A stretch of DNA of 64,000 bases from Tetraselmis striata. Lineage: Eukaryota; Chlorophyta; Chlorodendrophyceae; Chlorodendrales; Chlorodendraceae. The translations under genes were made by a program, and so were the position numbers. Below are positions 11,252-58,274 of this stretch, one piece after another (the stretch's first letter is position 1; each line of letters begins with the position of its first letter). A model generated the notes under the pieces. The model was not told where the DNA came from. It made no database searches and saw only the letters and a list, made by a program, of their open reading frames with translations. The stretch is from positions 124,001-188,000 of the forward strand of contig VCJN01000841.1 of assembly GCA_006384855.1 (NCBI GenBank). Reading direction: 5' to 3'.

Positions 11252-14200
11252 TCATGCTCGGACAGAAATTGCTCGATGGCCATGTTCCGACCTACGGGTG
11301 TTCAGTGATTGTTCCCAATCCTGCAGCACTGTGCACCCCTCAGCCCCCAGCGCCTCACCTGCAGCAACAGCAGTAGCGCCGTACCGCAGTCAAGACCCAC
11401 CACCATCTGCCGGCCCCTCCCCACTCAGCACCAGCAGGCATGCAGCGCGAGAGGGAGGGGCAGGGGAGGGGCTGGCAAGTGGACGCACCGTCTAGGTACA
11501 GGGTTTGGAGCGCCTGGTTGTAGTGCCAGGTGCCGTCGCTGCCCTGCCGCGGGGTCAGCGCTTCCGCCAGCGCCTTGGCCCCCTCATCTCCGATATTGGT
11601 CCCTGCAGCACCAGCAAGCAGCGTGGTGGCGCCACAGTCAGACTCATCACCTGCCTGTCCCTCCCCACTCAGCACCAGCATGCATACAGCAGCGAAGGGA
11701 GGGGCTGGCAGGGAAGGGGCTGGCAAGGGGACGCACCGAATAGGTCTAGGGTTTGGAGCGCCTGGTTGCAGCGCCAGGTGCCGTCGCTGCCCTGCCGCGG
11801 GGCCAGCGCCTCCGCCAGCGCCTTGGCCCCCTCATCCCCGATGAAACTGCCTGCAGCACCAGCAAGCAGTGTGGTGGCGCCACAGTCAGACTCATCATCT
11901 GCCTCCCCCTCCCCAATCACCACCATCAGGCAAGCAGCAGGGGAGGGAGGGGCAGATAAGGGGACGCACCGTCCAGGTACAGGGTTTGGAGCGCCTGGTT
12001 GCAGTGGCAGGTCCCGTCGCTGCCCTGCCGCGGGGCCAGCGCCTTCGCCAGCGCCTTGACCCCCTCATCTCCGATCCCATTCACTGCAGCACCAGCAAGC
12101 AGTGTGGTGGCGCCACGGTCAGACTCCGCATCTCCCTGCCCCTCCCCAATCAGCACCAGGTGGCTGGCAGAAGGGGAGGGAGGGGCAGGCAGGGGCTGGC
12201 AAGGGGACGCACCGCGCAGGTCTAGGTTTTGGAGCGCCTGGTTGACATGCCAGGTCCCGCTGCTGCCCTGCCGGGGGGCCAGCGCCTCCGCCAGCGCCTT
12301 GGCCCCCTCATCTCCGATCCCACTGTCTGCAGCACCAGCAAGCAGTGGTGGCGCCACGGTCAGGCTCATCATCTACTTGCCCCTCCTCGCCACTCAGCAC
12401 CAGCAGCCATGCAGCAGCGGAGCAAGGGGGGAGAGGTGGGGGGGGGGGGGGGGGGGGGGGGGGGGCGGGCAGGCAGGTGCTGGCAAGCACTGGGGTGGCT
12501 GAACGCACTGAACAGGGTCAGGGTTTGGAGCGCCAGGTTGCAGTGCCAGGTCCCGTCCCTGCCTTGCTGCGGGGCCAGCGCCTCTGCCAGCGCCTTGGCC
12601 CCCTCATCTCCGACCCCATTGTCTGCAGCACCATCAAGCAGTGTGGTGGCGCCGCAGTCAGACTCATCATCTGCCTGCCCCTCCCCAATCAGCACCAGCA
12701 GGCATGCAGCAGGGGAGGGAGGAAAGGGCTGGCAAGTGGACGCACCGTCCAGGTACAGGGTTTGGAGCGCCTGGTTGCAATGCCAGGTCCCGTTGCTGCC
12801 CTGCTGCGGGGCCAGCGCCTCCGCCAGTGCCTTGGCCCCCTCATCTCCGATCCCATTGTCTGCAGCACCAGCAAGCAGTGTGGTAGCGCCACAGTCAGAC
12901 CCATCACCATCTGCCTGCCCCTCCCCAATCAGCACCATCAGCCATGCAGCAGGGCAGGAAGGGGCAGGGCAGGGGCTGGCAAGTGGACGCACCGTCCAGG
13001 TTCAGGATTTGGAGCGCCTGGTTGCAGTGCCAGGTCCCGTCGCTGCCCTGCCGCGGGGCTAGCGCGCCCGCCAGCGCCTTGGCCCCCTCATCCCCGATGA
13101 AACTGCCTGCAGCACCAGCAAGCAGTGTGGCGGCGTCGCACTCAGACTCATCATCTGCCTGCCCCTCCCCACTCAGCACCAGCAGGCATGCAACAGGGGA
13201 GGGAGGGGCAGATAAGGGGCTGGCAAGGGGATGCACTCGTGAAGTGCAGGGTTTGGAGCGCCTGGTTGCAGTGCCAGGTCCCGCCGCTTTCCTGCTGGGG
13301 AGCCAGCGCCTCCGCCAGCGCCTTACCCCCCTCGCCTCCGACACCATTGTCTGCAGCACCAGCAAGCAGTGTGGTGGCGCCATAGTCAGACTCACAATCG
13401 GCATGCTCCTCCCCAATCAGCAGCAGCAGGCATGCAGCAGGTGGAAGAGGCTGGCAAGGGGACGCACGGCGGAGGTCCAGGGTTTGGAGCGCCTGGTTGC
13501 ACTGCCAGGTGCCATCGCTGCCCTGCCGCTGTGCCAGCGCCTCCACCAGCGCTCTGCCTGCCTCCGGATCCACTTTATAGCCTTACAATTGCATGGAAGC
13601 ACGCCGTCAGTCCCGCTGGCGAGCAGCCATGCGGATAGAATCATCATGTAAAGGCTGCATCTCTGGGAGACATGGTGCTGTCAGCCGGCCCATTCATCAC
13701 TCACCCCTTAATGCCAATGAGCAAATGTTGGCATTCAATGACCAAGCACCATCCAGCGACTGCACGGGCTCCAGCCACGCAGCCACCGCATGCACCACAG
13801 CCAACCCGGTGCTCTCGGCTTCCCATGATGCACCTGGGGCACAAGTGTTACCCACACATCAACTTGTCATCCCCTTCAGCCACCAAAGGGCCACCACAGG
13901 CACCCTTAGCCTTGCACCCATCGATGCAAAATTCGCACAAGCAAGCTCACCTCCTGGAACCTCAAGCTTCAGGTGCGCATCTTCCTGCTTGGTGACGTAG
14001 TTAGATAGCAGGCTTGCAGCCAGCCACGCGTAGTCCGCCCCCTTGCCATTCTCTCCCGCCCATGCATGCACCGCGCTCAGCACGTCATGGAGACGCTGGC
14101 TGTCGATGTCCATGTGGTCCGCCCTTGGAGGGCCCGGCGGGACGGTGAGACCCAGGTAGCTGCACGTGCGCTGCATGTCCTCCTCCCTCTCCAGCACCCC

Positions 14201-16901
14201 TCCGGCCCACAGTATCTGCGCGGCTCGACTTGCCATGCCGCGGAGCCCGGAGCAGGCGTACTTTCCAGCCTGTTTTCTGTCCAGCAGCCACTCCGCCACA
14301 GACCTGTGGTCCAGGTGCCACACCCCGGCGCACTGGCTCATGTACCCACCCAGCTCCAGCTCCAGTGAGGTTTCCAAGTCCTGCATAAAGCCGCGCCAGC
14401 CGGAGAAGCGCACGGTGTCGTACAGGGCCGCCGTTGATAGCGGCTGGGCGTAGGGCAGCGGCGCAACCACAGCCTCCAGGATGGGCTGCAGCTGCTGAAA
14501 CGTCTTCAGTGACACTTGTTCCTTGAAGCGCTCCCTGTAGAGCTCACTCAGACCCTTGGGCAGGCCCTTGGTGTCCGCAAAGTCTGTGCCGCCATTATCC
14601 GGCTTGTCCATGCAGTCCAGCGCAAACACAAGCCACCGGAAGCTGATCTCTGCGCGCTGCAGAAACTCCCCCAGCAGCTGCTCCCTCAACTTCTCCCGCC
14701 TGCCATGGCTGCCAACCCGGCTGTCCACGCACGCCTCCAAGCAGCGCCTCAGATGTTGTGACCCCTCCAGGCGGCGATCAAGAAATGTCCGCAAGTCTTT
14801 GCAGATGCTGTCTTGATGCTGCTCGTCTTCCGAGTTGAGCGATACGTCCTTCCACTTGCAGCAGACCAGCCTGTACCGCCAACAGAGGCAGGCAGCCCCA
14901 ACTCAATCCCAACGTTTTTCTCTGCGTTTCTGCCCTCAAGCAGTTCCATATGTCATTGTTGCAAGAAAGAAATACAATTGACTCAGGAGGTGTGGCACGG
15001 CTTGACCTGCATGCCTCGTCCAGCTGCTGTTTAGCGCCTACAACGTCTAGCCTGGATGAGCACACCATCTTCAACCAGGGAAGCTTCCCGCTCAACAACA
15101 GCTTGTCCAGCTTGTGCAGCAGCCCCAGAATGGTGTGGTCAGAATCGAGGAGGGCCGCCTCGTCCAGAGCGTCGACCACAATCAGCGCCACCTTGCCGCC
15201 CTTCAGGAATCCAGGTCCATCTTTACCATACAGCTCCACAAGAGGTTTGTGCACAGCAAACTCGATGGCGTCCGAGCAGCCGCCGCCCCTCCTCAGGGCC
15301 GCTTCTGAAAACATTGCCTGCAGGTTTGAACTGCTCTGCAGCTTGCGGCAGTACTCTGGGAGGCTGGTGGCCAGCATGCTGGCCAGATTGCAGACAAAGG
15401 CGGCTGGATTAAGGGATCTCGGCACGTCGTAGCGACAAAAGTGTTGCGCCACCACTGTAATATTCTGGCGCCCTCCCGCGTGACTCCAGCCCCCGGCTCC
15501 CCAGCAGAGCTCCTCCATCACGACAGACTTGCCGAATCCGGCCGGTGCAGTCAGCAGGACAGAAGGCCGGCCCTCCTGGTTCAGCTTCTGGAGCAGCTGG
15601 TCAATCAGCCACCCACGCTGCACAACAATGCCAGGTTTGTCGTTGCGTTCCTTGTGTCGGAAGTCATTGGTCAAGAAGGGCTGAAGGAAATTGAGGTCCG
15701 CGACAGGACCCGGCATGGATGACTCCTGCGCATGCAGCAGAGGTCCTTGGCTTTTGGGTTGGACCGATCAAGATGACACCTGCAGCATCAGTTGCATGAC
15801 CGGACCATGTGCACAAAGCTCCCCACCTTGTGGCTCTCAAATAAGCAGTCCAGCTCCGCAGCTTGCGCAGCACCGCTGAAACTACGCAGCAGGGCTCCCA
15901 GGACCTGCAGCCCGTGCTCTGCCCTGGAGATACCAAAATACACATCTTCTCCGTCATGCATTGTTGGGTTGCGCGTCTTCCTCACGTATCTTTGGACCTT
16001 GTTGAACAAATCTTCCGCGATGCGCCCAGCTTTGTGAAGCGTCCCGAGTATTTGCCCAGCTCCAGAGCAGCCAAGTATGTCCACCCCCTGCTGGTGCGCA
16101 ATGCTCTCCAGGACGCGCTCCACCTGGTTGCAGACGTCCTGCACGAGCTTTGTTGTGCGATGTTGCAGGGACCCATGGTCCAGCACGCTCTTTCGGGTAT
16201 TCCACTTCTGCAGGACCCATGATATGTAGATGGCGGCAACATCCTGCGATAGTGGCTGCATGCCGCTCTCCAGCCGCTGCACTTCCTCCTCTGCCGCTTG
16301 TCTGACCTTCAGCGCCGAGGCAACAACGCCTGGCTGCAGCGGGTCCAACTGATTCCGGTCGATCTCCTTGTCCCCCCAGGTCCAGCTCCCCACCTCAGCA
16401 TCAACTTCCGCGACGCCATTGTCCACCAGCTTGCAGTGGCCATCAAACCGCCACTTCTTCTTCGTCTGTGCCATGGCCAGGCCAGCGTAGCGAACAACGC
16501 CGCTGTCTGTTGCCTCTGTCCACGTCCACCATCCCTCGCTCGCAGTCTTCTGCTTCCCTTGCCCTGCAGAGCAAACCCTGTGAGCACATTGGCTCGCGCA
16601 TAACATCTAATTGTGTATTGGTGCAGCCAGGCGTACAGAACATCTCCTCACGCGCCCACTCAGCCACCGCAGTCGGGCGGACGGGGCTATGCGCACCACC
16701 AGGCGTCGACGCCTTGCTAGTCTTGGTGCTCTCACATGACTGCCCAGTGCTTGTAGCTGCCCCAGCTGGACTGTGACCGACTGCCACCGGCTGCTCCAGC
16801 TTGGACTGGTTGGGGTCTTGCTTCGGGGGCGCCTCCCCGTCTACCTCAACCGCGCCGGGCTTGCTGACCATCCCTGCCTGCTCTGCGCTTGAGTCTGCCA
16901 T
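11252..16901 (-). CDS. NLR-like protein: HEPN-type helical domain, NACHT NTPase, nine RI-type LRRs (copy A, intact)
   Basis: Deduced exons on the minus strand are 16901-16652, 16563-15827, 15725-15007, 14870-13951, then nine 114-nt LRR exons from 13581 to 11489, and a last exon 11358-11252. All junctions keep frame (3759 nt, 1252 aa). Residues 1-83 are low-complexity and charged. Residues 84-329 hold a Trp-rich start (EGWWTWTE, GSWTWGD) and a helical region with RNPTMH near 281, an R-x4-H motif as in HEPN RNases. The NACHT exon has Walker A APAGFGKS near 390, Walker B VALIVVDALDEA near 510 and a VCSSRLD sensor-like stretch. A helical post-NACHT exon follows, then LRRs of the form IGDEGAKALAEAL...NQALQTLDL, and the tail LRDWEQSLN-like. 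NLR proteins of this class usually sense ligands through LRRs and signal after NTP-driven oligomerisation. That role, and RNase activity, are inference here. It is an animal-type NACHT-RI architecture rather than plant NB-ARC. Confidence 0.86.
11489..13581 (-). repeat. array of nine LRR exon cassettes (about 244-bp period), copy A
   Basis: Each unit is a 114-nt exon (38 codons, one LRR) plus an intron of about 130 bp. Exons start after ..GCTGGTGCTGCAG and end at G|GTGCGTCCCC-type donors, all phase 1-1, so units can be gained or lost without breaking frame. The conserved word tttggagcgcctggttg (plus strand) marks units near 11504, 11752, 11987, 12229, 12523, 12764, 13011, 13251 and 13485. Intron sequence is conserved along with exons, pointing to recent tandem duplication or conversion. 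The intron near 12437-12465 is expanded by a G-run. Confidence 0.9.
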
Positions 16902-17770
16902 GCTCCCCGCTTGCTGGCCTGCACTTCCTCAGATCATCTGCCTTGCAGGAGTGCTTTAGGTGCAGTTCCTGCGGGGTTTGCCGTCAACAGAAGGTTCATC
17001 GAATCCGTCCCTAGCAGCAGGTATGTGAGGGCCGCAGGGATGAGGGGGACGAGAGGGGGGGACGCATGCTAGCACACAGACAAATGGGAAGTGCATCCTC
17101 CAGCTAGAGCGTGCATCCTACAGTAGCAGAGATAACGTATGGAGCAGCCGCGAGGCTGCAGGTTTAGTGACACTGGAAAGGTATGTGCTGCCAGCAAGTC
17201 ATGCGGGGTAAGCCAGTCTTTGCCACCACCACAAAGCGGCCACATAGCAGATAGTAAAATAAAGGCGAAACCAAAGATTTTCTGACTTTTCCCCAACTTT
17301 CTTACTGTCGCGCAGCCAGTCAATCGAGGCGGCGCTGTACTTGGGCCACGGCATGTCGCTTGGTGAATGCATAGGCAGTCAACGCATTGCGGGATGTAGC
17401 GTTACGCCGACTGAACCGACAATCAAATCCCTGTAAGGCGTGTGAGCACCCTTCGCCATTGCGAGACTCTCTCAGTGGGCGGGGCTGGCTCCCTACCAGC
17501 CTGGCAGCAACTACACCGTGCAGCGGGGACAGAGCAATGACCACTGCTGTAAGATGACGACGCGTAACGCCGGAAATGACCGGTGCACTCACACAAGAAG
17601 ATACTAGACTCGAAATTGAACTTCGACCGTCAGCAAGGGCCTGCTAACAATCTCACAGCCGGGTTTCGCCACTCATCGTGTATGTCGTGGTCAGCAAGCA
17701 GTGTCGACCCAGAAAATAAGTTGCTACCCTAAAATACCTCCTCTCTCCTGCTGCTCCCTCATAGAGATTT
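16902..17770. other. 5' flank of NLR-A
   Basis: About 870 bp lie between the NLR-A start codon and the shared intergenic block. It should hold the promoter. I see no canonical TATA or initiator at a convincing position and no gene. The sequence is absent from copy C, where the block edge lies about 30 bp from the start codon, and also from copy B. Confidence 0.5.
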
Positions 17771-19990: not shown

Positions 19991-21136
19991 GACATAGGTA
20001 TTATATGTACTAAATGAATAGTACAGTTTAACATGTCCATCCTTGCACAATGCAGCCACCCGCAGGATCTCCCCCTCCTGTGAATGCCTCCTTTGTCCAG
20101 GTGATGCGGCACATCAAGGGACCGGAGGCCCTCCAGCCAAGATGCTAGTCCACATCGGCCTCTACATGGATATGAGCATCGTCCGCTTTGTACATGGGAA
20201 AATGCAGTGTTTGCTCGTGTTGCAGTCCGCCTGCCATGCGTCTGATGGTCCTGATCGACAGGTGCAGTAGCAGAATGCAGCCAACAAAGACTGAGTGTAT
20301 TGTTCTAGCTTCATCCGGCCAGAAGTGCATCCAGATGATTGATGATGTTTGGACAGCTACTGCGGCGATAGTAGGGACCACATGTATGGCTGACGGCTTG
20401 CTGCTGTGCGGGTAAATGCAGTGAAATGCGATTACCGCCAAATTTGAAGTTTTTTACTGTTGGATACGGATGCATATTTATTGGGTTCCGTTGGTAGGAT
20501 TAAAAGCTCGCTATGTTCGGGCCGGGCCGCCCAAGCGCGAGTAGTTTAGTAACAATGGGAAAGTTTCACGTGCACCGATGGGGGGCGAAGGAATTCAATG
20601 GTGATCAGCTATCCAGTCTTGCCCCCTTCGAATTTGGATAAACGGAAACGGACCAGAATCGGTACAAACTGAAAGACGGCCCATTCTGAGATGGCCCCAA
20701 AGTCTGAAGCACACACTTTCTTCCTGCCCCCTCGCAGATCCAGTAGGAAATAACACTTGGCACACAAGGGGGGATCGGCAGGATCCGCACACCTGCTGTC
20801 CGGTTGGAATCGCGGCAATAGGCGAACAGAGGCCGCAAACTACGGAGGCATCAGCTCTAGTGTCACCATCGGCTGTTATCATAGAGTTCCAAATATGCAT
20901 CTAACCCCCCTGCGACGCGGGCCCATGAGCGTGCCAATGCAGCGACATGACAGGAAACAGCCCTGCTGGTGATCATTGCCCGACCTCTGAGGCAGGACAA
21001 TCCGCTTTAGTAAGTGGCTTCGTGCCTTATCAATTTTGGCCGTCCATGTTGGTTCTCCTCTGGGTTAGTTCCTGGTATGTTGGTTGGCATTGTTTCTTCT
21101 GGAGATGGTGTTCATGTATCTGTGTTGCTACCGGCA

Positions 21137-21980
21137 CATCTGATCATCATCATCACACTGCTTCTCCCGCCGCCCCACACACCATGGCGCCGTAGCCCCT
21201 CCTTTCTGCAACTTCCTGCCTGCTGCTGCTGATGCTATTTTGAGGGTGTAAGATTGCTTACTCGCTCATAATTGTTTTTGCCTGGGACATTAAAGGGGCT
21301 GGACTAATCCTTAAGGGTACCCCCCTCACCTTGGACCCCCCCAGTAGCTTCTCTCTTCTCCCTGAGCTGCGGGAGCGCAACATCGACAGATGCGCCAACG
21401 TGGAGACCCGCGGCAGCAGGGCATTGGTTAGAATGGTAGATAACAGTGGTTCGTAGTTACTAGATGGCCATCCGCCACCCGGCAGCATTCAGCCGCCAGT
21501 TCGGCAGCGCACCACCATCACCACAAATAGGGACCACATGTGTGGCTGCTGTGCCAAATTTGAATGCGGCCAAATGCGACAACCGCCAAATCTGACATCA
21601 TCATCACACTGCATCTCCCGCCGCCTCACACACCATGGCGCTGTAGCCCCTTCTTTCTACAACTGCCTTCCTGCTGCTGCTGATGCTATTTCGAGGGTGT
21701 AAGCTTGCTTACTCGCTCATAATTGTTCTTGCCTGGAACATTAAAGGGGCTGGACTAATCCTTAAGGGTACCCCCCTCACCTGCCTCCCCCCCAACCCCC
21801 CCCCCCCCTGGTAGCACCGTCTCTTCTCCCTGAGCCGCTGGAGCGCCACATCGACAGATGCGCCGACGTGGAGACCCGCGGCAGCAGGGGATTGGTTAGT
21901 TAGAATGGTAGATGTCAGTGGTTCGTAGTTACTAGATGGCCATCCGCCAGCCCGGCAGCATTCAGCCGCCAGCCCAACAG
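21137..21980. repeat. internal tandem duplication in unit B
   Basis: A stretch of about 0.4 kb (from the ATCATCATCACACTGC words to gcagcattcagccgccag) occurs twice, at about 21137-21500 and 21597-21980. Units A and C have it once. The join near 21525-21595 also contains a short scrambled piece of the upstream sequence (ggaccacatgtgtggctg and caaatgcg words). Confidence 0.7.
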
Positions 21981-22526
21981 CGCACTCCCACCACGCAGCG
22001 CCACATCACCACACCTCCCCCAGCAGCCACCGGCAGTGGCCGGAGGAGTGTGGCAGGCAGGCATGGCGGTGGGGTGTGCCCTAGGACTTCTGTCAACCAA
22101 CAGTCATGCAGCAGTTAGCTGAATAGCTCCAAGAAGAGGGCTGTCCAGTGAGGCTGGCAGCCGCCACAAACTCTTTGTAAGCTCCCGTCCCCCCTTTCCC
22201 TTTAGGGGTTCTGCTGCTGAGCCTCATGGCTCGGCGAAGCATAACGGCAGGAGCTCCAGTCTTGTATCGTGGAACAAGAGACCCCCCCCCCACCCCCACC
22301 CCACCTTGCCCTTTAGGAGCGTTGCCGATGAGCCTCACGGCTCGGCGCAGGATGGTGGCAGGAGATCCTGTCCCCCATCGTGTAACAACACCCCCCCCCC
22401 CCCCCCCCCCCCCCCTTTTCTTCAAATCGTCCCCCCCCCCCCCCCCCCCCCCCAGTCCCCAGCCCCTGCCAAAAGCCACGGAGTTGCACTTGTCGGCGCT
22501 GCACAACACCCGATGATGCGCGCCCT

Positions 22527-22663
22527 TCACGACTCGCGCTCAGCGACCAGCGCGGCATTGGCCTCCACCAGCGCTTTCTGGAATGCCGGCCGCTCCGTCA
22601 TGGCCCGCTGCAGGTGCTCCGCGACAGCGCGGTCTGCTCCGCCTGCTGCCGCGTGTAGGGCCC
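22527..22663 (-). pseudogene. GST last-exon fragment, copy B (frameshifted)
   Basis: This is the same fragment of the GST terminal exon as in unit A, with stop at 22527-22529 and the edge at the ggccc near 22663. It shares with copy A the single missing base that breaks the frame after QQAEQTAL. The shared lesion suggests A and B derive from one another after splitting from C. Confidence 0.85.
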
Positions 22664-24299
22664 TGGACGTATTCATTGTGAACTGAAAAATCGTCCCAGA
22701 ATATTAGCTGCGTGCACCTCTACCTGCCCAGCTGCCCCGCCTTTGGGCGGGCGCTGGTGGCGGCGGCACAGGAGGAGCTGCACGGGGATGCCGTGCCGGC
22801 CGCTTGGTGCCCCCCCCCCCCCCCCCCCCCCCCCTCCACCCCCCTGCGCCCTGGACGCCATGCTGCCTGCGGCGCCGTGAGAAGGGGGAGGCAGAGGAGG
22901 CTGTGTCAAACAGCGAGGAAGAGTGTTGTACATTTGCCAACTTTGACAATGAATTAATCTTTGGCATACCCGTAGTAGGAGAGCAAGTGGAAGGCTGAGA
23001 GTGTAGCACCTGCGGGACACCTGGAAATTATGGGACTGGGCGCCTATGACTTTACATATAAATATAGTCGCAGCGTGAATGCACTAGCGCCACCCCCCAT
23101 CCATCAACTGATCAAATAGCAGCTGTCGACAGCCGACACAAACGCAATCAAACATGTCACGAACTGCGCGACAGTAATATATCATTGCATCGTGTCAGTC
23201 TTTGCTGCTTGCTGACAAAACAATATGGCCGGGGGGCGGGCGATGATAGAGAGCCGCGTGGGTCTGCACTAAATGGTCACATGGCACCCCCACACATGCG
23301 GGCCGGAGCATACAGGCCGGCAACCCCGTGGATGCTGCTCCCGTGATCTGATGCCATGGACGTGACAAGACAGCAACAAGCACTTCCGCGCATGTGGGGG
23401 TGTAAGGAACGGGCATGTGGGGTGGCGAGGGGTGATTGCTCCTCCAGAAAGGCGGAGTGGTCGACTACTCCCTGCTAATGCGGCCGAAGAGAGCAGTGGA
23501 GGCGTGGATCATGGCTGTGCCTCAGAGACAACGCGTGCTGGAAGCTGGAACGATCACGGAGAGCAAGTAGCCGCGCTGCGTAGCGTGAGGGACAGTGGCA
23601 AGGAGGCCTCCCCTGAGATGAATGGACATGCAGTGGAGGAACCAACGAGGGCAAATGATTGTGCAATGCGATGAGTCCTTGTGTGTCACCGTGACGAAGC
23701 CATCTTTAGTGTGCTGGTGAGATCTACCTTTTCCTTGGGAGGGAGGGGGGCATGACAGTACCGCAGTGGCAATCTTCGGGCATCGGGACTGACAGGGAGG
23801 TCTCTTCAGGCAAGTGGCAGCGGCTGACACATGAGATGCCCTAGCGAAGCCATGTCGTTTCCGCCCTAAGAAGCCATGTCGTGTCACATCCTCACATGTG
23901 GGGATGGATGGTGAGGAGGAGAAGGGGGTTGTGTCACCTGCATGAAGGGCCGGTCGTCATGTGGCAGCGCCCCCAGCACGACGCTCCGCTCCGTGCTGAA
24001 CACCTCGTCTGAAATGCACTGACAACTCATGGTGCACGCCCATGAATCTTGCGAGGAACAAGCATGATACATGCAGAAATTCAACAGTGCTGCAATGGAG
24101 ACAAGCTCTTTTTGGCTGGGGCCTGCACATCATGATAGCTGCCAACCGTCTTTGCTTGAGCTGCACATCGCAAGAGCTGCCAGCCACTCATGACGAAGGC
24201 TGTACTTGGTATGGCAGCTTGCGTGACCGTGTGACCAGCTTCAGGGGCGGGTGGAATCTACGGCAATGGTGAGATGATTACATTGCATGCCCAAAGCAA
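22664..24299. other. duplicated spacer of unit B with a private ~170-bp insert
   Basis: This spacer is paralogous to the spacers of units A and C. Between about 23840 and 24010 it has an insert absent from both. On the minus strand the insert reads like a bounded exon: after ..TTGTCAG, frame ISDEVFSTERSVVLGALPHD then DRPFMQ, then GTGACAC. The source gene is not recognised. C-run at 22811-22834. Confidence 0.55.
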
Positions 24300-24535: not shown

Positions 24536-27500
24536 CGGCCAGGTACAGGGTTTGGAGCGCCTGGTTGCAGTGCCAGGTCCCGTCGCTGCCCTGCCGCGGG
24601 GCCAGCGCCTCCGCCAGCGCCTTGGCCCCCTCATTTCCAATCCCACTGTCTGCAGCACCAGCAAGCAGTGTGGTGGCGCCACAGTCAGACTCATCATCTG
24701 CCTGCCCCTCCCCACTCAGCACCAGCAGGCATGCAATAGGGGAGGGAGGGGTAGGAAAGGGGCTGGCAAGGGGACGCACCGAACAGGTCCAGGGTTTGGA
24801 GCGCCTGGTTGCAGTGCCAGGTGCCGTTGCTGCCCTGCCGGGGGGCCAGCGCCTCCGCCAGCGCCTTGGCCCCCTCATCTCCGATCTTGCTCCCTGCAGC
24901 ACCAGCAAGCAGTGTGGTGGCGCCGCAGTCAGACTCATCATCTGCCTGCCCCTCCCCACTCAGCACCAGCAAGTATGCAGCAGGGGACGGAGGGGCAGGG
25001 GAGGGGCTGGCAAGGGGACGCACTGGTCAGGTGCAGGGTTTGGAGCGCCTGGTTGCAGTGCCAGGTGCCGTCGCTGCCCTGCCGCGGGGTCAGTGCCTCC
25101 GCCAGCGCCTTGGCCCCCTCATCTCCGATCTTGTTCACTGCAGCACCAGCAAGCAGTGTGGTGGCGCCACTGTCAGACTCATCATCTGCCTGCCCCTCCC
25201 CACTCAGCACCAGCAAGTATGCAGCAGGGGACGGAGGGGCAGGGGAGGGGCAGGGAAGGGGACGCACTGGTCAGGTGCAGGGTTTGGAGCGCCTGGTTGC
25301 AGTGCCAGGTGCCGTCGTTGCCCTTCCAGGGGGCCAGCGCCTCCGCCAGCGCCTTGGCCCCCTCATCTCCGATCCTATTCTCTGCAGCACCAGCAAGCAG
25401 TGCGGTGGCGCCGCAGTCAGACTCATCATCTGCCTGCCCCTCCCCACTCAGCACCAGCAGGCATGCAATAGGGGAGGGAGGGGTAGGAAAGGGGCTGGCA
25501 AGTGGGCGCACCGCCCAGGTACAGGGTTTGGAGCGCCTGGTTGCAGTGCCAGGTGCCGTCGTTGCCCTTCCAGGGGGCCAGCGCCTCCACCAGCGCCTTG
25601 GCCCCCTCATCTCCGATCTTGCTCCCTGCAGCACCAGCAAGCAGTGTGGTGGCGCCGCAGTCAGACTCATCATCTGCCTGCCCCTCCCCACTCAGCACCA
25701 GCAGGCATGCAACCGGGGAGGGAGGTGCAGGAAAGGGGCTGGCAAGGGGACGCACCGCCCAGGTCAAGGGTTTGGAGCGCCTGGTTGCAGTGCCAGGTGC
25801 CGTCGCTGCCCTGCCGCGGGGCCAGCGCCTCTGCCAGCGCCTTGGCCCCCTCACCTCCGATCCCATCGCCTGCAGCACCAGAGGGCAGTGCGGTGGGGCC
25901 ACATTCAGACTCATCATCTGCGTGCTCCAACCCAATCAGCAGCAGGCGGCATGCAGCGCGGGAAACAGGGCCAGGGCAAGGGGATGCACCATAGAGTTTC
26001 ATGGTTTGGAGCGCCTGGTTGCAGCGCCAGGTCCCGTCGCTGCCCAGCCGCGGGGCCAGCGCCTCCGCCAGCGCCTTGGCCCCCTCATCTCCGATCTTGT
26101 TCCCTGCAGCACCGGCAAGCAGTGTGGTGGCGCCACTGTCAGACTCAAAATCTGCCTGCCCCTCCCCACTCAGCACCAGCAGGCATGCAGCAGGGGAGGG
26201 AGGGGCAGGGAAGGGGCAGGGAAGGGGACGCACTGGTCAGGTGCAGGGTTTGGAGCGCCTGGTTGCAGTGCCAGGTGCCGTCGTTGCCCTTCCAGGGGGC
26301 CAGCGCCTCCGCCAGCGCCTTGGCCCCCTCATCTCCGATCCTATTCTCTGCAGCACCAGCAAGCAGTGCGGTGGCGCCGCAGTCAGACTCATCATCTGCC
26401 TGCCCCTCCCCACTCAGCACCAGCAGGCATGCAATAGGGGAGGGAGGGGTAGGAAAGGGGCTGGCAAGTGGGCGCACCGCCCAGGTACAGGGTTTGGAGC
26501 GCCTGGTTGCAGTGCCAGGTGCCGTCGTTGCCCTTCCAGGGGGCCAGCGCCTCCACCAGCGCCTTGGCCCCCTCATCTCCGATCTTGCTCCCTGCAGCAC
26601 CAGCAAGCAGTGTGGTGGCGCCGCAGTCAGACTCATCATCTGCCTGCCCCTCCCCACTCAGCACCAGCAGGCATGCAACCGGGGAGGGAGGTGCAGGAAA
26701 GGGGCTGGCAAGGGGACGCACCGCCCAGGTCAAGGGTTTGGAGCGCCTGGTTGCAGTGCCAGGTGCCGTCGCTGCCCTGCCGCGGGGCCAGCGCCTCTGC
26801 CAGCGCCTTGGCCCCCTCACCTCCGATCCCATCGCCTGCAGCACCAGAGGGCAGTGCGGTGGCGCCACAGTCAGACTCATCATCTGCCTGCCCCTCCCCA
26901 CTCAGCACCAGCAGGCATGCAGCAGGGGAGGGAGGGGCAGGGAAGGGGCTGGCAAGGGGACGCACCGCCCAGGTACAGGGTTTGGAGCGCCTTGTTGCAG
27001 TGCCAGGCACCATCGCTGCCCTGCCGGGGAGCCAGCGCCTCCGCCAGCGCCTTGGCCCCCTCATCTCCGATCACACTGTCTGCAGCACCAGCAAGTAGAG
27101 TGGTGGCGCCACAGTCAGACTCATCATCTGCCTGCCCCTCCCCAATCAGCACCAGCAGGCATGCAGCAGGGGAGGGAGGGGCAGGGGAGGGGCTTGAAAG
27201 GGGACGCACCGTCCAGGTCCAGGGTTTGGAGCGCCTGGTTGCAGTGCCAGGTGCCATCGCTGCCCTTCCGCGGGGCCAGCGCCTCCGCCAGCGCCTTGGC
27301 CCCCTCATCTCCGATCAAATTGCCTGCAGCACCAGCAAGCAGTGTGGTGGCGCCACAGTCAGACTCATCATCTGCCTGCCCCTCCCCACTCAGCACCAGC
27401 AGGCATGCAGCAGCAGGGGAGGGAGGGGCAGATAAGGGGCTGGCAAGGGGATGCACCGTCCAGCTCCAGGGTTTGGAGCGCCTGGTTGCAGTGCCAGGTG

Positions 27501-27814
27501 CCGCCGCTGCCCTGCCGCGGGGCCAGCGCCTCCGCCAGCGCCTTGGCCCCCTCATCTCCGATCCCACTGTCTGCAGCACCAGCAAGCAGAGTGGTGGCGC
27601 CACAGTCAGGCTCATGATCTGCCTGCCCCTCCCCAATCAGCACCAGCAGGCATGCAGCATGGGAGGGAGGGGCAGGGGAGGGGCTGGCAAGGGGACGCAC
27701 TGGTCAGGTGCAGGGTTTGGAGCGCCTGGTTGCAGTGCCAGGTGCCGTCGCTGCCCAGCCGCGGGGCCAGCGCCTCTGCCAGCGCTTTGCCTGCCTCCGG
27801 AGCCACTTTATAAG
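24536..27814 (-). repeat. array of 14 LRR exon cassettes, copy B
   Basis: Units of about 244 bp carry the word tttggagcgcctggttg (or close variants) near 24550, 24797, 25039, 25283, 25527, 25770, 26007, 26248, 26492, 26735, 26984, 27226, 27474 and 27719. Exons remain 114 nt, phase 1-1, with consensus GCTGCAG acceptors and GTGCGT/GTGCAT/GTACGT donors. The array is free of homopolymer expansions in its introns, unlike arrays A and C. Confidence 0.9.
25261..26861. repeat. higher-order duplication inside LRR array B
   Basis: The segment 25261-25895 recurs at 26227-26861 with no difference that I can find by eye, an offset of 966 bp or four cassettes. The two copies diverge sharply after the GGGCAGTGCGGTGG word. 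This fits a recent multi-unit unequal exchange or gene conversion. Confidence 0.8.
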
Positions 27815-29315
27815 CTGAAAATGGCATCGAAACACGTCGTCAGTCCTACTGGCGAGCAGCCATGGGGATATAACCATCATGTAAAGGCTGCATCTCTGGG
27901 AGACATGGTGCTGTCAGCCGGGCCATTCATCACTCACCCCTTAATGCCAATGAGCAAATGTTGGCATTCAATGACCAAGCACCATCCGGCGCCTGCACGG
28001 GTTTCAGCCACGCAGCCACAGCATGCACCACAGCCAACCCGATGCTCTCGTTTTGCCACAATGCACCTGCGGCACAACGTGTTGAGTGTCACCCACACAT
28101 CAAGTTGCCAGCCCCTTCAGCCACCAAAGGCACCCATAGCCTCGCACCCTGAGCCTCGCACCCATTGATGCAAAATTCGCAAAAGCAAGGAGGTGACCTG
28201 CTGGAACCTCAAGCTTCAGGCGCGCATCTTCTCGCTTGGCGACATAGTTTGACAGCAGGCTTGCAGCCAGCCACGGGTAGTCCGCCCCCTTGCCATTCTC
28301 TCCCGCCCATGCATGCACCGCACAGAGCACTTCATGGAGACGCTGGCTGTCGATGTCCATGTGCTCTGCCTTTGGAGGGCCCGTCGGGACGGTGAGGCCC
28401 AGGTAGCTGCACGTGCGCTGCATGTCCTCCTCCCTCTCCAGCACCCCTCCGGCCCACAGTATCTGCGCGGCTCGACTTGCCATGCCGCGGAGCCCGGAGC
28501 AGGCGTACTTTCCAGCCTGTTTTCCGTCCAGCAGCCACTCCGCCACAGACCTGTGGTCCAGGTGCCACACCCCGGCGCACTGGCTCATATACCCACTTAG
28601 CTCCAGCTCCAGTGAGGTTTCCAAGTCCTGCATCAAGCCGCGCCAGCCGGAGAAGCGCACGGTGTCGTACAGGGCCGCCGTTGATAGCGGCTGGGCGCAG
28701 GGCAGCGGCGCAACCACAGCCTCCAGGATGGGCTGCAGCTGCAGAAACGTCTCCAGTGACACTTGTTCCTTGAAGCGCTTCCTGTAGAGCTCACTCAGAC
28801 CCTTGGGCAGGCCCTTGGTGTCCGCAAAGTCTGTGCCGCCATTATCCGGCTTGTCCATGCAGTCCAGCGCAAACACAAGCCACCGGAAGCTGATCTCTGC
28901 GAGCTGCAGAAACTCCCCCAGCAGCTCCTCCCTCACGTACTCCCTCGTGTCCTCCCAACAGTCATCGCTGCCAACCCGGCTGTCCACGCACGCCTCCAAG
29001 CAGCGCCTCAGATGTTGTGACCCCTGCAGGCGGCGCTCAAGAAATGTCCGCAAGTCTTTGCAGATGCTGTGTTGATGCTGCTCGTCTTCCGAGTTGAGCG
29101 ATGCGTCCTTCCACTTGCGGCAGACCAGCCTGTACCGCCAACGGAGGCAGGCAGCCCCAACTCAGTCCCAACGTTTTTCTCTGCGTTTCCACGCTCAAGC
29201 AGCTCCATATGTCATTGCTGCAGGAAAGAAATACATTTGACTCAGGAGGTGTGGCACGGCTTGACCTGCATGCCTCGTCCAGCTGTTGTTTAGCATCTAC
29301 AACGTCTAGCAACGT

Positions 29316-31580: not shown

Positions 31581-33746
31581 ACTAAATGAAAGTACAGTTT
31601 AACATGTCCATCCTTGCACAAAGCAGCCACCCGCAGGATCTCCCCCTCCTGTGAATGCCTCCTTTGTCCAGGTGATGCGGCACATCAAGGGACCGGAGGC
31701 CCTCCAGCCAAGATGCTAGTCCACATCGGCCTCTACATGGATATGAGCATCGTCCGCTTTGTACATGGGAAAATGCAGTGTTTGCTCGTGTTGCAGTCCG
31801 CCTGCCATGCGTCTGATGGTCCTGATCGACACGTGCAGTAGCAGAATGCAGCCAACCAAAGCTGAGTGTATTGTTCAAGCTTCATCCGGCCAGAAGTGCA
31901 TCCAGATGATTGATGATGTTTGGATAGCTACTGCGGCGATAGTAGGGACCACATGTGTGGCTGACGGCTTGCTGCTGTGCAGGTGAATGCAGTGAAATGC
32001 GATTACCGCCAACTTTCAAACTTTTTACTTTTTGATACGGGTGCATATTTATTGGGTTCCGTTGGTAGGATTAAAAGCTCGCTATGTTCGGGCCGGGCCG
32101 CCCAAGCGCGAGTAGTTTAGTAACAATGGGAAGGTTTCACGCGCACCGATGGGGGGCGAAGGAATTCAATGGTGATCAGCTATCCAGTCTTGCCCCCTTC
32201 GAATTTGGATACACGGACACGATCAGAATCGGTACAAACTGAAAGACGGTCCATTCTGAGATGGCCCCAAAGTCTGAAGCACACACTTTCTTCCTGCCCC
32301 CTCGCAGATCCAGTAGGAAATAACACTTGGCACACAAGGGGGGGCCGGCAGGATCCGCAAACCTGCTGTCCGGTTGGAATCTTGGCAATAGTAGAACAAA
32401 GGCCGCAAACTACGGGGGCATCAGCTCTAGTGTCACCGCCGGCCGTTATCATAGAGTTCCAAATATGCATCTAACCCCCCTGCGACGCGGGCCCATGAGC
32501 GTGCCAATGCAGCGACATGACAGGAAACAGCCCTGCTGGTGATCATTGCCCGACCTCTGAGGCAGGACGATCCGCCTTAGTAAGTGGCTTCGTGCCTCAT
32601 CTATTTTGGCCGACCATGTTGGTTCTCATTCCGGTTACTTCCTGGTATGTTGGTTGGCAGTGTTTCTTGTTGGGATGGTGTTCATGTATCTGTGTTGCTA
32701 CCAGCACATGTGATCACCATCATCACACTGCTTCTGCCGCCGCCCCACACACCATGGCGCTGTAGCCCCTCCTTTCTGTAACTCCCTCCCTGCTGCTGCT
32801 GCTGCTATTTTGAGGGTGTAAGGTTGCTTATTCGCTCATAATAGCTTATTGCCTGGGACATTAAAGGGGCTGGACTAGCCCTAAAGGGTACCCCCCTCAC
32901 CCGGGACCCCCTGGTAGCACCGTCTCTTCTCCCTGAGCCGCTGGAGCACAACATCTACAGATGCGCCGACGTGAAGACCCGCGGCAGCAGGGCATTGGTT
33001 AGTTAGAATGGTAGATGACAGTGGTTAGTAGTTTCTAGATGGCCATCCGCCAGCCCGGCAGCATTCAGCCGCCGGCCCGGCAGCGCACCACCATCACCAC
33101 ATCTCCCCCAGCAGCCACCGGCAGTCGCCGGAGGAGTGGGGCAGGCAGGCATGGCGGTGGGGTGTGCCCTAGGACTGCTGTCAACCAACAGCCATGCAGC
33201 AGTTAGCTGAATAGCTGCAAGAAGAGGGCTGTCCAATGAGACCGGCAGCCCCCACAAGCCCTTTTAAAGCTCCCGTCCCCCCTTGCCCTTTAGGGGTTCT
33301 GCTGCTGAGCCTCACGGCTCGGCGAAGCGTAACGCCAGGAGCTCCAGTCTTCCATCGTGGAACAAGAGGACCCCCCCCCCCCCCCCCCCCCCCCCCGTCC
33401 CCCTTGTTTTTTAGGGTGTTGCCGATGAGCCTTACGGGTCGGCGCAGCATAGTGGCAGGAGATCCTGTCCCCCATCGTGTAACAACGCCCCCCCCCCCCC
33501 CCCCCCCCCCTTTTCTTCAAATCGTCCCCCCCCCCAGTCCCCAGCCCCTGCCAAAAGCCACGGAGTTGCACTTGTCGGCGCTGCACAACACCCGATGATG
33601 CGCGCCCTTCACGACTCCCGCTCAACGACCAGCGCGGCATTGCCCTCCACCAGCGCCTTCTGGAACGCCGGCTGCTCCGTCATGGCCCGCTGCAGGTACT
33701 CCGTGACCAGCGCGGTCTGCTCCGCCTGCTGCCGCGTGTAGGGCCC
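31581..33746. repeat. segmental duplication unit C: GST-3'-flank block
   Basis: Third copy of the block, closest to unit B over 31606-32990. It ends at the GST exon remnant. C-runs at about 33371-33396, 33487-33510 and 33527-33535. Confidence 0.8.
33609..33746 (-). pseudogene. GST last-exon fragment, copy C (frame kept)
   Basis: The fragment reads through to the stop at 33609-33611 without the one-base loss seen in copies A and B (TALVTEYLQRAMTE ... FQKALVEGNAAL). It is nevertheless only the 3' end of the exon: homology stops at the ggccc near 33746 and no upstream GST sequence follows. It is a duplicated remnant, not a gene. Confidence 0.85.
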
Positions 33747-35202
33747 TGGATGTATTCATTGTGAACTGAAAAATCGTCCCAGAATATTAGCTGCGTGCAC
33801 CTCTACCTGCCCAGCTGCCCCGCCTTTGGGCTGGCGCTGGTGGCGGCGGCACAGGAGGAGCTGCACGGGGATGCCGTGCCGGCCGCTTGGTGCCCCCCCA
33901 CCCCCCCCCCCCCCCGCCGCGCCCTGGATGCCATGCTGCCTGCAGCGCCGTGAGAGTGGGGAGGCAGAGGAGGCTGTGTCAAACAGCGAGGAAGAGTATT
34001 GTACATTTGCCAACTTTGACAATGAATTAATCTTTGGCATACCCGTAGTAGGAGAGCAAGTGGAAGGCTGAGAGTGTAGCACCTGCGGGACACCTGGAAA
34101 TTATAGGACTGGGCGCCTATGACTTTACATATAAATATAGTCGCAGCGTAGATGCACTAGCGCCACCCCCCATCCATCAACTGATCAAATAGCAGCTGTC
34201 AACAGCCAACACAAACGCAATCAAATATGTCACGAACTGCGCGACAGTAATATATCACGGCATCGGGCAGTATTTGCTGCTTGCTGACAAAAGAATAGCG
34301 CCGGAGGGGCAGGCGATTATAGAGAGCCATGTGGGTATGCGCAAAATGGTCACATGGCACTCCCCACACATGCTGGCCGGAGCATACAGGCTGGCAACCC
34401 AGTGGGTGCTGCTACTGTGATCTGGTGCCATGGACGTGACAAGACAGCAACAATCACTTCCGCACATGTGGGGGTGTAAGGAACGGGCATGTGGGGTGGC
34501 GAGGGGTGATTGCTCCTCCAGAAAGGTGGAATTGTTGAGTACGCCCTTGTGCCACTGAAGAGAGCAGTGGAGGCGTGGATCATGGCTGTGCCTCAGAGAC
34601 AGCGCGTGCTGGGGGCTGCAGCGCTCACGGAGAGCATGTAGCCGAGCTGCGTAGCGTGAGGGACAGTGGCAAGGAGGCCTCCCCTGAGATGGATGGACAT
34701 GCAGTGGAGGAACCAACGAGGGTAAAATGATTGTGCAATGCGATGAGTCCTTGTGTGTCACTGTGACGAAGCCATCTTTAGTGTGCAGGGTGTGCAGGTG
34801 AGATCTACCTTTTTCTGGGGGGGTGGGGGGGGCGGGGGGGGGGACGCAGTTGCAATCTTCGGGCATCGGGACCGGCCGGGAGGTGTCTTCAGGCAAGTTG
34901 CAGCGGCTGTCGTCTGAAATGCCCTGACAGACTCATGGTGCATGTCCATGAGTCTTGCGAGGAACACGCTCGATACATACAGCAAATCAAGATTGCTGGG
35001 TGAAGACGGGCTCTTCTTGCCTGAGCTGCACATCACGAGAGCTGCCAACCGTCTTTGCTTGAGCTGCACATCGCAAGAGCTGCCAGCTACCCATGAAAAA
35101 GGCGGTACATAGTATGGCACCTTACCTGGCTGAATGGCCAGCTTCAGGGGCGGGTGGAATCTATGGCAATGGTGAGATGATTACATTGCATGCCCAAAGC
35201 AA
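33747..35202. other. duplicated spacer of unit C
   Basis: Paralogous to 9805-11251 and 22664-24299, including the coding-like plus-strand stretch just after the GST remnant. No gene or RNA recognised. C/G runs near 33897-33915 and 34818-34843. Confidence 0.5.
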
Positions 35203-38200
35203 TCATGCTCGGACATAAATTGCTCGATGGCCATGTTCCGACCTGCGGGTGTTCAGTGATTGTTCCAGATCCCGCAGCACCTTGCGCCCCTCGGGCCCCA
35301 GCGCCTCACCTGCAGCAACAGCAGTGGAGCCGTCCCGCAGTCAGACCCACTGCCATCTGCCTGCCCTTCCTCCCCACTCAGCACCAGCAGCCATGCAGCA
35401 GGTGAGGGAGGGGCAGGGGAGGGGCCAGCAAGGGGACGCACCGTCCAGCTCCAGGGTTCGGAGCGCCTGGTTGCAGTGCCAGCTGCCGTCACTGCCCTGC
35501 CGCGGGGCCAACGCCTCCGCCAGCGCCTTGGCCCCCTCATCTCCGATCCCATTCACTGCAGCCCCAGCAAGCAGTGCGGTGGCGCCACAGTCAGACTCAT
35601 CGCTAGCCTGCCTCTCCCCACTCAGCCATCAGCAGGGATGCAAGAGGGGAGGGAGGGGCTTGAAGGGGGGTGGTTAGGGGACGCACCGGCCAGGTGCAGG
35701 GTTCGGAGCGCCTGGCTGGAGTCCCAGGTGCCGTCACTGCCCTGCCGCGGGGCCAGCGCCTCCGCCAGCGCCTTCGCCCCCTCATCTGCGATCCCATTCA
35801 CTGCAGCCCCAGCAAGCAGTGTGGTGGCGCCACAGTCAGACTCCGCATCTGCCTGCTCCGCCCCACTCAGCACCAGCAGGCATGCAACCGGGGAGGGAGG
35901 TGCAGGAAAGGGGCTGGCAAGGGGACGCACCCGCCAGGGCCAGGGTTCGGAGCGCCTGGTTGCAGTGCCAGCTGCCGTCGCTGCCCTGCCGCGGGGCCAG
36001 CGCCTCCGCCAGCGCCTTGGCCCCCTCATCTTCGATATCGGTCCCTGCAGCACCAGCAAGCAGTGCGGTGGAGCCGCAGTCAGGCTCATCATCTGCCTTC
36101 CCCTCCCCACTCAGCACCAGCAGGCATGCAGCAGGGGAGGGAGGGGCAGGGTTGGGGCTGGCCAGGGGGCGCACCCCACAGGTCCAGGGTTTGGAGCGCC
36201 TGGTTGCAGTGCCAGGTGCCGTCGCTGCCCTGCCGCGGGGCCAGCGCCCCCGCCAGCGCCTTGGCCCCCTCGCCTCCGATCCCATTCACTGCAGCACCAG
36301 CAAAGCAGTGTGGTGGCGCCACAGTCAGGCTCACCATCTGCCTGCCCCTCCCCACTCAGCACCAGCAGGCATGCAACCAGGGGGGGGGGGGGGGGGGGGC
36401 AGGGAAGGGGACGCACTGGACAGGTCCAGGGTTCGGAGCGCCTGGTTGCAGTGCCAGGTGCCGTCGCTGCCCTGCCGCGGGGCCAGCGCCCCCGCCAGCG
36501 CCTTGGCCCCCTCATCTGTGATCCCATTCACTGCAGCGCCAGCAAAGCAGTGTGGTGGGGCCACAGTCAGACTCACCATCTGCCTGCCCCTCCCCACTCA
36601 GCACCAGCAGGCATGCAGCAGCAGGGGAGGGAGGGGCAGATAAGGGTCCGGCCAGGGGACGCACCGGTCAGGTCCAGGGTTTGGAGCGCCTCGTTGCAGC
36701 GCCAGGTGCCGTCGCTGCCCTGCCGCGGGGCCAGCGCCTCCGCCAGCGCCTTGGCCCCCTCATCTCCGATGTAACCGCCTGAAGCACCAGCAAGCAGTGT
36801 GGCGGCGCTACGGTCGGACTCACCACCATCGGCCTGCCCCTCCCCACTCAGCACCAGCAGGCATGCAACCAGGGGGGGGGGGGGGGGGCAGGGGCAGGGA
36901 AGGGGACGCACCCGCCAGGGTCAGGGTTCGGAGCGCCTGGTTGCAGTGCCAGGTGCCGTCGCTGCCCTGCCGCGGGACCAGCGCCTCCGCCAGCGCTCTG
37001 CATGCCTCCGGAGCCACTTTATAGTCTTACAATTGCATAGAAGCAGGCCGTCAGTCCCGCTGGCGAGCAGCCATGCGGATAGAACCATCATGTAAAGGCT
37101 GCATCTCTGGGAGACAAGGTGCTGTCAGCCGGGCCATTCATCACTCACCCCTTAATGTCAATGAGCAAATGTTGGCATTGAATGACCAAGCACCATCCAG
37201 CGACTGCACGGGTTTCAGCCACGCAGCCACAGCATGCACCACAGCCAACCCGATGCTCTCGTTTTGCCATGATACGCCTGCGGCACAACGTGTTGAGTGT
37301 CACTCACACATCAAGTTGTCAGCCCCTTCAGCCACCAAAGGCACCCATAGCCTCGCACCCATCGATGCAAAATTCGCAAAAGCAAGGAGGTGACCTGCTG
37401 GATACACAAGCTTCAGGCGCGCATTTTCTTGCTTGGCGACATAGTTAGACAGCAGGCTTGCAGCCAGCCACGCGTAGTCCGCCCCCTTGCCATTCTCTCC
37501 CGCCCATGCATGCACCGCGCACAGCACGTCATGGAGACGCCGGCTGTCGATGTTCATGTGTTTCGCCTTTGGAGGGCCCGGCAGGACGGTGAGGCCCAGG
37601 TAGCTGCACGTGCGCTGCATGTTCTCCTCCCTCTCCAGCACCCCTCCGGCCCACAGTATCTGTGCTGCTCGACTTGCCATGCCGCGGAGCCCGGAGCAGG
37701 CGTACTTTCCAGCCTGTTTTCCATCCAGCAGCCACTCCGCCACAGACCTGTGGTCCAGGTGCCACACCCCGGCGCACTGGCTCATATACCCACCCAGCTC
37801 CAGCTCCAGTGAGGTTTCCAGATCCTGCATCAAGCCGCGCCAGCCGGAAAAGCGCACGGTGTCGTACAGGGCCGCCGTTGATAGCGGCTTGGCGCAGGGC
37901 AACGGCGCAACCACGGCCTCCAGGATGGGCTGCAGCTGCTGGAAGGTCTCCAGTGACACTTGTTCCTTGAAGCGCTTCCTGTAGAGCTCACTCAGACCCT
38001 TGGGCAGGCCCTTGGTGTCCGCAAAGTCTGTGCCGCCATTATCCGGCTTGTCCATGCAGTCCAGCGCAAACACAAGCCACCGGAAGCTGATCTCTGCGCG
38101 CTGCAGAAACTCCCCAAGCAGCTCCTCCCTCAACTCCTCCCTCAGGTTCTCCAAAGAGTCATCGCTGCCAACCCGGCTGTCCACGCACGCCTCCAAGCAG

Positions 38201-55111: not shown

Positions 55112-55156
55112 AGCAGTCTCGACTCTAGCAGTCGAGCAGAGTGTCATGCTTACTCT

Positions 55157-58245: not shown

Positions 58246-58274
58246 GCCGGGCTGTGACCGTACAGCCGTCGCTG

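Follow-up and report, generated by a model that had tools for sequence, protein, structure and literature searches.

Described systems close to the genes reported here are the brown algal ROCO genes, the NOD-like receptors (NLRs) of fungi and vertebrates and the NB-ARC/APAF1_C proteins of green algae, with which we compare a cluster of leucine-rich repeat (LRR) genes of Tetraselmis striata (class Chlorodendrophyceae, green algae). The cluster lies on contig VCJN01000841.1, from which a stretch of 64,000 nt of one genome (the window) was analyzed. The ROCO genes of brown algae encode each LRR in a separate 72-nt exon of phase 2; exon shuffling is intense, splice variants occur and four concave residues are under diversifying selection; the proteins were proposed as immune receptors (Teng et al. 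2024, PMC11378527). In fungal NLRs of the HET-D/HET-E type the repeats undergo concerted evolution, repeat number varies between isolates and the selected codons are paired around a fixed one (PMC4986451, PMC1805685); fungal NLRs with high internal repeat conservation are treated in a further source (PMC12222747). In vertebrate NLRs such as NLRP3 the LRR exons have fixed, frame-preserving lengths and their border lies at a fixed position of the β-sheet (PMC6642158). Finally, NB-ARC/APAF1_C proteins were described in T. striata and Ulva, two of the four being in T. striata, with NB-ARC and a winged-helix-like domain (PMC8891106).

Like the brown algal ROCO genes, the T. striata genes carry one LRR per fixed-length symmetric exon and show an excess of change at the sites expected on the concave face. 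However, they encode a nucleoside triphosphatase (NTPase) of the STAND class (signal transduction ATPases with numerous domains) and not a ROC-COR GTPase, their exons measure 114 nt instead of 72 nt (phase 2) with a different LRR length, and the lineages are unrelated. The likeness to the ROCO genes, for which Teng et al. cite Zambounis et al. (2012), is one of working alike and not of membership. With the fungal HET-D/HET-E type they share a STAND receptor, near-identical repeats, concerted evolution, varying repeat numbers (in T. striata between paralogues), a few hypervariable codons beside fixed ones and intact repeats in damaged copies. Unlike the fungal NLRs, which have WD40, ANK or TPR repeats and no LRR in the available part of that survey, they use LRRs with an own intron per repeat, and the identity between units (0.76-0.84, first units omitted) is below the fungal threshold of 85% over 100 residues. 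As in vertebrate NLRs the LRR exons preserve the frame and their border has a fixed position in the β-sheet, but a vertebrate exon codes for two LRRs with 171 nt, or for a single LRR of 28 residues, whereas 114 nt encode one 38-residue LRR in T. striata. NACHT proper is present in vertebrate NLRs and had no match at E≤0.01 in seven open frames of T. striata, and homogenized introns are not mentioned in the available text on the vertebrate genes. The NB-ARC/APAF1_C proteins share a STAND-type NTPase but of another NTPase family, and that report, in its available part, mentions neither NPHP3-type NTPases nor LRR exon arrays. The T. striata genes combine features of the ROCO, vertebrate NLR and fungal NLR systems on a STAND-LRR protein. 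No earlier report on this gene family was found among open-licence papers. From the sequence we consider it probable that these are STAND/NLR-type receptor genes, in which a sensor of ribonuclease-inhibitor-type LRRs is built of tandem cassettes diversified by exchange and selection.

The whole window was scanned with a profile of the LRR exon, which gave 33 rows. Thirty are LRR cassettes, all on the minus strand, which form three tandem paralogues P1, P2 and P3 with 9, 14 and 7 units, respectively (Table 1). The other three rows, elsewhere in the window, score 5-7 bits (E-value 0.3-0.9) and were discarded as noise. Independently, Tandem Repeats Finder reported a period of 244 at all three arrays (scores 1814, 5060 and 2327), so that the unit numbers given in a preliminary description of this DNA are borne out; its limits coincide exactly with the last base of the final P1 cassette exon (11489) and the first base of the opening P3 cassette exon (37025). 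Exon starts were taken from the profile, the exon end was fixed 114 nt downstream and a donor was then looked for at that point; in the final unit of each of P1-P3 the terminal acceptor marked where the intron ends. A donor stands precisely 114 nt on in all 30 exons of P1-P3 and in all 17 exons of a fourth gene, P4, on another contig (C1963). In these 47 units the donor is GT in 46 and GC in one, the acceptor is always AG, and every exon is phase 1-1 and free of stops. A cassette consists of the 114-nt exon, coding for one 38-residue LRR, and an intron of ~130 nt, with intron lengths of 117-182 nt at constant exon length. Away from its ends the cassette reads IGDEGAKALAEALAPRQGSDGTWHCNQALQTL and barely changes. 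That each LRR is such an exon, as previously stated, applies to the 30 array exons, but P1 has an additional, divergent LRR exon (129 nt) ahead of its array, and a similar stretch also precedes the P2 and P3 arrays.

Exon and intron identity within the arrays are 0.813 and 0.849 (P1), 0.875 and 0.896 (P2) and 0.853 and 0.836 (P3). Within and between P1-P3 the ranges are 0.81-0.88 for exons versus 0.84-0.90 for introns, and the introns are indeed as conserved as the exons. Toward P4 the intron identity drops to 0.70-0.71, whereas that of the exons stays at 0.79-0.82, which indicates that the likeness of the introns reflects recent common origin and homogenization of units and not a conserved intron function. 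Without the first units the mean protein identity between units is 0.76 in P1, 0.81 in P2, 0.79 in P3 and 0.84 in P4. In a tree of all 47 units a single fully supported split (100/100) separates the 17 P4 units from the 30 units of P1-P3. The first units of P1-P3 cluster (100/99), as do the last units (98/98), and interior units are mixed, a picture of stable array ends with turnover between them; of the 42 inner branches, 19 have support below 80, and the bootstrap had not converged. In P2 a block of four units is duplicated, units 5 and 6 being identical to units 9 and 10, introns included, and exons 7 and 11 coding for the same residues. Tree and duplication support the suggestion that units are gained and lost as whole cassettes. 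The winged-helix exons of P1-P3 are separated by a silent divergence (dS) of only 0.06-0.09, so unit numbers from 7 to 14 arose over a short distance. Flanking stretches are repeated along with the genes (7721-11010, 20126-23842 and 31697-35047), which indicates that the cluster arose through tandem duplication of a gene with its flank.

Rates of change were counted in 27 of the 30 P1-P3 units and 16 of the 17 P4 units; first units were omitted, as the divergent LRR exon adjoins their opening codons. Strong variation is seen in codons 36 and 38, which close an exon, and in codons 1 and 3, which open the following one. At their first and second positions 0.571 of the comparisons among the 27 P1-P3 units differ, versus 0.130 in the introns and 0.072 in codons other than 1, 2, 3, 36 and 38. 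The ratio of the four codons to the intron is 4.4 for P1-P3 (bootstrap 3.6-5.6) and 4.1 for P4 (bootstrap 3.2-5.2; 16 units), and by gene 4.3 in P1, 5.3 in P2, 2.9 in P3 and 4.1 in P4. The four codons exceed the introns in 342 of 351 unit pairs of P1-P3 and in 116 of 120 pairs of P4. In P4 none of the other 38 codons varies as much as these four; in P1-P3 they share the five highest ranks with codon 2. Codon 37, a leucine between variable codons, has a diversity of 0.07, 0.00 and 0.27 at its three positions in P1-P3 and none in P4. Of the intron bases at the P1-P3 junctions the last seven are invariant and the first eight reach at most 0.21. Outside the variable codons of P2, amino-acid change (0.046) is lower than silent change (0.096). 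Across 43 junctions, residues 36, 38 and 1, 2, 3 occur in 39 different combinations.

In the LRR consensus LxxLxLxxNxI, codons 1, 3, 36 and 38 correspond to outward positions of the β-strand. A structural model was available for P0010, a homologue from Cymbomonas with the same motif, and was used solely to place strands, its mean pLDDT (predicted local distance difference test) being 61; it resembles ribonuclease inhibitor and NLRPs. The predicted strand spans the equivalents of residues 36-38 in seven of the ten repeats and extends only to 36 in the other three. Residues 36, 38, 1 and 3 would thus be placed on the concave face. The excess change at exposed LRR residues, which the preliminary description had named as a check, was found in both sets of units. 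In eight further LRR proteins returned by the protein search, visual inspection shows variation at these strand columns too.

P1 is plausibly a complete gene; its model spans 16474 to 11252, with 14 exons coding for 1219 residues. The order of domains is an N-terminal domain, an NPHP3-type STAND NTPase, a TANC1-like winged helix, the divergent LRR, nine 38-residue LRRs and an end piece. With Pfam, PF24883 (NPHP3_N) scores 40.9 bits on the open frame 14778-15716 (cut-off 24.8) and PF25521 33.2 bits on the open frame 13859-14794 (cut-off 27); PF24883 is over cut-off also in P4 in the genome search. A piece of the P1 array (273 residues) compared to solved structures matched LRR chains, with a best E-value of 4.1e-12, 4.6e-8 for ribonuclease inhibitor and 2.9e-6 for NLRP3; the LRRs are of the ribonuclease-inhibitor type. 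The features of a STAND/NLR-type protein are present, namely a P-loop NTPase, a winged helix behind it and a C-terminal repeat sensor, and no ROC-COR GTPase was matched by Pfam in seven open frames. The database protein P0001 (JGI Tetstr1, TSEL_009788) is the P1 locus; it begins further upstream than our model and ends on sequence near 9998 and 9724. Since this database model skips a unit and runs on through intron sequence, we regard it as an artefact of gene prediction and not as evidence of splicing. Four of the 47 cassette introns (P1 after units 1, 4 and 6, P2 after unit 8) have a length that is a multiple of three and are open in frame, and could be retained without frame shift; the P1 database model reads through those after units 1 and 4.

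Upstream of the NTPase a pattern RN-x3-H is found, as RNPTMH in P1, RNPTAH in P3, RNFLAH in P4 and RNAIMH in a paralogue on contig C1892. All four contain R-x4-6-H, which we take to define the HEPN motif. RNSEVH in the relatives on C1638 and C1660 was not counted, as it lies in a linker-like stretch, and the motif is not clearly present in C1638, C1660 and C284. A genome search with the P1 N-terminal domain gave three matches, P1, P3 and the C1892 paralogue (24% identity to P1), and in an alignment of the P1 and P4 N-terminal regions the motif did not line up. A HepT-like Pfam match is below threshold in P4 (E-value 0.057) and there was none in P1 or P3; solved structures matched the domain weakly only. 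The pattern fits HEPN nucleases, which makes the domain a candidate, with no confirmation from profile and fold searches; the output of the receptor might then be RNA cleavage.

P2 and P3 look damaged. P2 has no N-terminal domain and lacks both Walker motifs; it aligns to P1 only from the counterpart of P1 15051 onward, ~2.7 kb are missing, and the sequence immediately upstream of P2 (29314-33101) corresponds to the upstream flank of P1 (17772-21525). In P3 the NTPase exon has a one-base frame break, which P1 and P4 do not have and which could still be a sequencing error; the database protein P0002 (TSEL_009790), which is the P3 locus, bridges the break by omitting part of the NTPase. The paralogues therefore do not differ mainly in repeat count, as had been proposed, and of the diversification device for a recognition domain envisaged earlier the gain and loss of whole cassettes and the excess change at exposed residues are retained. 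Lacking the front of the receptor, P2 may be dead or may serve as a store of cassettes, the latter because fungal NLR pseudogenes keep intact repeats (PMC1805685).

A genome search with the winged helix gave eight matches: P1-P3, P4 (66% identity) and four at 33-37%. All 17 exons of P4 are 114 nt long. A DNA search with the cassette gave at least 47 matches; those listed lie on two contigs, that of the window and C1963, and thus gave no sign of a second haplotype. The C1892 paralogue has a short array of spaced repeats sharing the same core, and in C1638, C1660 and C284 the LRR exons are few and irregular. Among the best ~8000 candidates of a protein search with P1 four matched, the P1 and P3 database models and two weak ones; with the pair of NTPase and winged helix, also among the best ~8000, there were four, one a relative of 378 residues (57% over 46%) and three weak. 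In the Cymbomonas tetramitiformis proteins P0005, P0006, P0007 and P0010 the LRRs are often 34 residues apart and, by eye, the scaffold is fixed and the strand positions vary, which suggests similar sensors in another green algal lineage.

The exchange of cassettes could proceed by unequal crossing over or gene conversion, which would duplicate, delete and swap them. Because every exon is symmetric, the frame would be kept and the fold would not be harmed. Such exchange would homogenize introns and scaffold residues, and selection for new binding surfaces would retain and spread changes at the outward residues of the β-strand. As the splice junction falls within both the strand and codon 1, joining different cassettes would also yield new combinations of half-strands. 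The sensor may thus recognize ligands, and the receptors may have a role in defence or in self/non-self recognition.

Several points speak against this account. The four codons were chosen after inspecting all arrays, so P4 is a replicate and not a blind test, and the pairwise counts carry no correction for relatedness of units or recombination between them. For P3 alone the bootstrap of the ratio is wide (1.4-4.7), and outside its variable codons there is no silent excess (amino-acid change 0.064, silent 0.059). Silent change is raised too in the variable codons, codon 2 included, with a proportion of silent differences (pS) of 0.358 versus 0.128 in P1-P3 and 0.409 versus 0.093 in P4. At the P4 junctions most intron bases are invariant, but those five and four before the end of the acceptor reach 0.49 and 0.33. 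With P2 and P3 damaged, only P1, and P4 as far as read, are plausible full receptors. In seven open frames Pfam gave no match to NACHT (PF05729) or NB-ARC at E≤0.01. For the N-terminal domain no Pfam family was over cut-off, the P4 N-terminal region was not matched by the P1 domain in the genome search, and AlphaFold predictions for two window sequences reached a pLDDT of 41 and were not used for a fold search.

We also weighed other explanations. P2 and P3 could be pseudogenes of a decaying cluster, with unit numbers drifting in dead DNA and only P1 and P4 of importance. The losses in P2, the broken frame of P3 and its missing silent excess would agree with this, as would the ratio of amino-acid-changing to silent divergence (dN/dS) of the winged-helix exons, which reaches 0.82 between P1 and P2 and 0.50-0.55 in the two remaining pairs. 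However, P2 and P3 together have 21 LRR exons, every one of which is open and has the exact length, and in P2 amino-acid change outside the variable codons is lower than silent change, though this may be older than the damage. Intact repeats in a dead gene are themselves on record, since fungal NLR pseudogenes hold them via exchange with active loci (PMC1805685). We regard decay as possible, with the balance leaning somewhat away from it.

An array serving mainly alternative splicing appears unlikely. Skipping of symmetric exons would give isoforms, as reported for human NLRP3, and gene-level turnover would be a side effect; the symmetry of all 47 cassettes would permit it, and the similarly designed brown algal ROCO genes have splice variants (PMC11378527), but splicing alone leaves the excess change at the four codons unexplained. 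Slightly less credible is tandem exon duplication under relaxed constraint, in which exposed residues vary freely and nothing is recognized. Such freedom would suit the strand columns that vary in the eight other LRR proteins. Its ceiling, however, is the neutral rate, and in every one of the four genes the four codons differ 2.9-5.3 times as much as the introns belonging to their units. That the unit counts are an artefact of assembly is very unlikely: tandem arrays of similar units easily collapse or expand, but units within one gene average 72-82% alike in protein, the 47 units comprise 45 distinct sequences and the P2 block alone is near-identical enough to raise suspicion. Least probable is a local mutational mechanism, a hotspot or templated mutagenesis at the exon edges with selection secondary, which would account for variability at both exon ends, the raised silent change and the two variable P4 intron bases, but not for the first two positions of codon 37 (0.07 and 0.00 in P1-P3, none in P4), the quiet P1-P3 intron ends or the three unit pairs of the fresh P2 duplication, which code for no difference.

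Besides the LRR genes, a search of the T. striata genome with the NTPase family gave 22 matches, and for 13 of them the open frame is long (818-1489 residues). From these 13 loci, ten were read in part, 3.5 kb each (L054-L063, on contigs C2605, C1590, C2061, C116, C985, C1221, C544, C2068, C2711 and C551), and every one of the ten contains two or more WD40-type repeats, which are 42 or 44 residues long and highly similar within the same gene. In 32 repeats the number of residue types is 14 at position 5, 12 at 23, 9 at 4, 8 at 7 and 6 at 25, and positions 6 and 24 are fixed. In Podospora the selected repeat codons are 7, 9, 25 and 27 (PMC1805685); in T. striata the pairs 5, 7 and 23, 25, each flanking a fixed residue, are likewise spaced 18 residues apart. 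These STAND-WD40 genes resemble fungal NLRs of the HET-E type. T. striata therefore seems to possess diversified STAND receptors of two kinds, with rates set against a neutral yardstick for the LRR kind only.

Other features of the window are included in Table 1. The element at 55085-59480, from its mix of domains, is presumably a DIRS-like retroelement, and a 282-bp tandem repeat adjoins the receptor cluster. Ordinary genes lie near both window ends.

Table 1. Positions of the receptor genes and other features in the window.
Feature	Position	Strand	Basis or remark
P1 exon A, N-terminal domain with RNPTMH (HEPN candidate)	15827..16474	-	exon open, reading frame and splice sites compatible with exon B; matches database model P0001
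P1 exon B, NPHP3-type STAND NTPase, Walker A APAGFGKS, Walker B ALIVVDALDE	14877..15725	-	PF24883
P1 exon C, winged-helix (TANC1-like) domain	13918..14818	-	PF25521
P1 divergent first LRR exon, 129 nt	13705..13833	-	exon model
P1 array, 9 LRR cassettes	11489..13581	-	profile and splice-site check
P1 array, starts of 114-nt exons	13581, 13350, 13106, 12859, 12622, 12326, 12083, 11850, 11602	-	
P1 exon following array	11252..11358	-	exon model; database model P0001 splices instead to exons near 9998, 9724
P2 remnant, end of NTPase region and winged-helix region	28100..29310	-	PF25521 28.9 bits
P2 array, 14 LRR cassettes	24536..27814	-	exons open and 114 nt in 14/14
P2 duplication of a four-unit block within the array (units 5-8 and 9-12), offset 966 bp	25050..26900	-	identical over ~600 bp
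P3 exon A, N-terminal domain, RNPTAH	39284..39931	-	
P3 NTPase open frame, shortened by one-base length difference relative to P1, P4	38487..39173	-	PF24883 over cut-off
P3 winged-helix region	37300..38250	-	PF25521 30.1 bits
P3 array, 7 LRR cassettes	35442..37025	-	profile and splice-site check
AlgH-like (DUF179) match	6489-7061	+	
282-bp tandem repeat, 4.9 copies	40867-42258		89% matches
Retroelement RNase H region	48133-48684	-	
DIRS-like retroelement (presumed)	55085-59480		weak reverse transcriptase and RNase H, both below cut-off; phage-integrase SAM-like over cut-off
12-bp tandem repeat within this element	58273-58328		
Glutathione S-transferase N-terminal match	63276-63965	-	

A wider picture, which we offer as a speculation and hold to be rather unlikely as a whole, is a genome-wide repertoire on exchangeable repeats. 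It would consist of STAND-LRR cassettes with truncated donors such as P2 and the hypervariable STAND-WD40 set, array length or splicing would vary among clones of one strain, and the HEPN end would turn recognition, perhaps of DNA viruses, into RNA decay and cell shutdown.

The combination of similar repeats, exchange of units and selection on few contact residues has been described for allorecognition genes of fungi and ROCO genes of brown algae and is now seen in a green alga on an NLR-like protein, which suggests that this design arose repeatedly. The own intron of each repeat provides a built-in neutral yardstick, so that selection can be measured unit by unit, which is impossible for repeats inside one exon. 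Receptor diversification thereby becomes testable in a single-celled alga with a known virus (PMC10120064).

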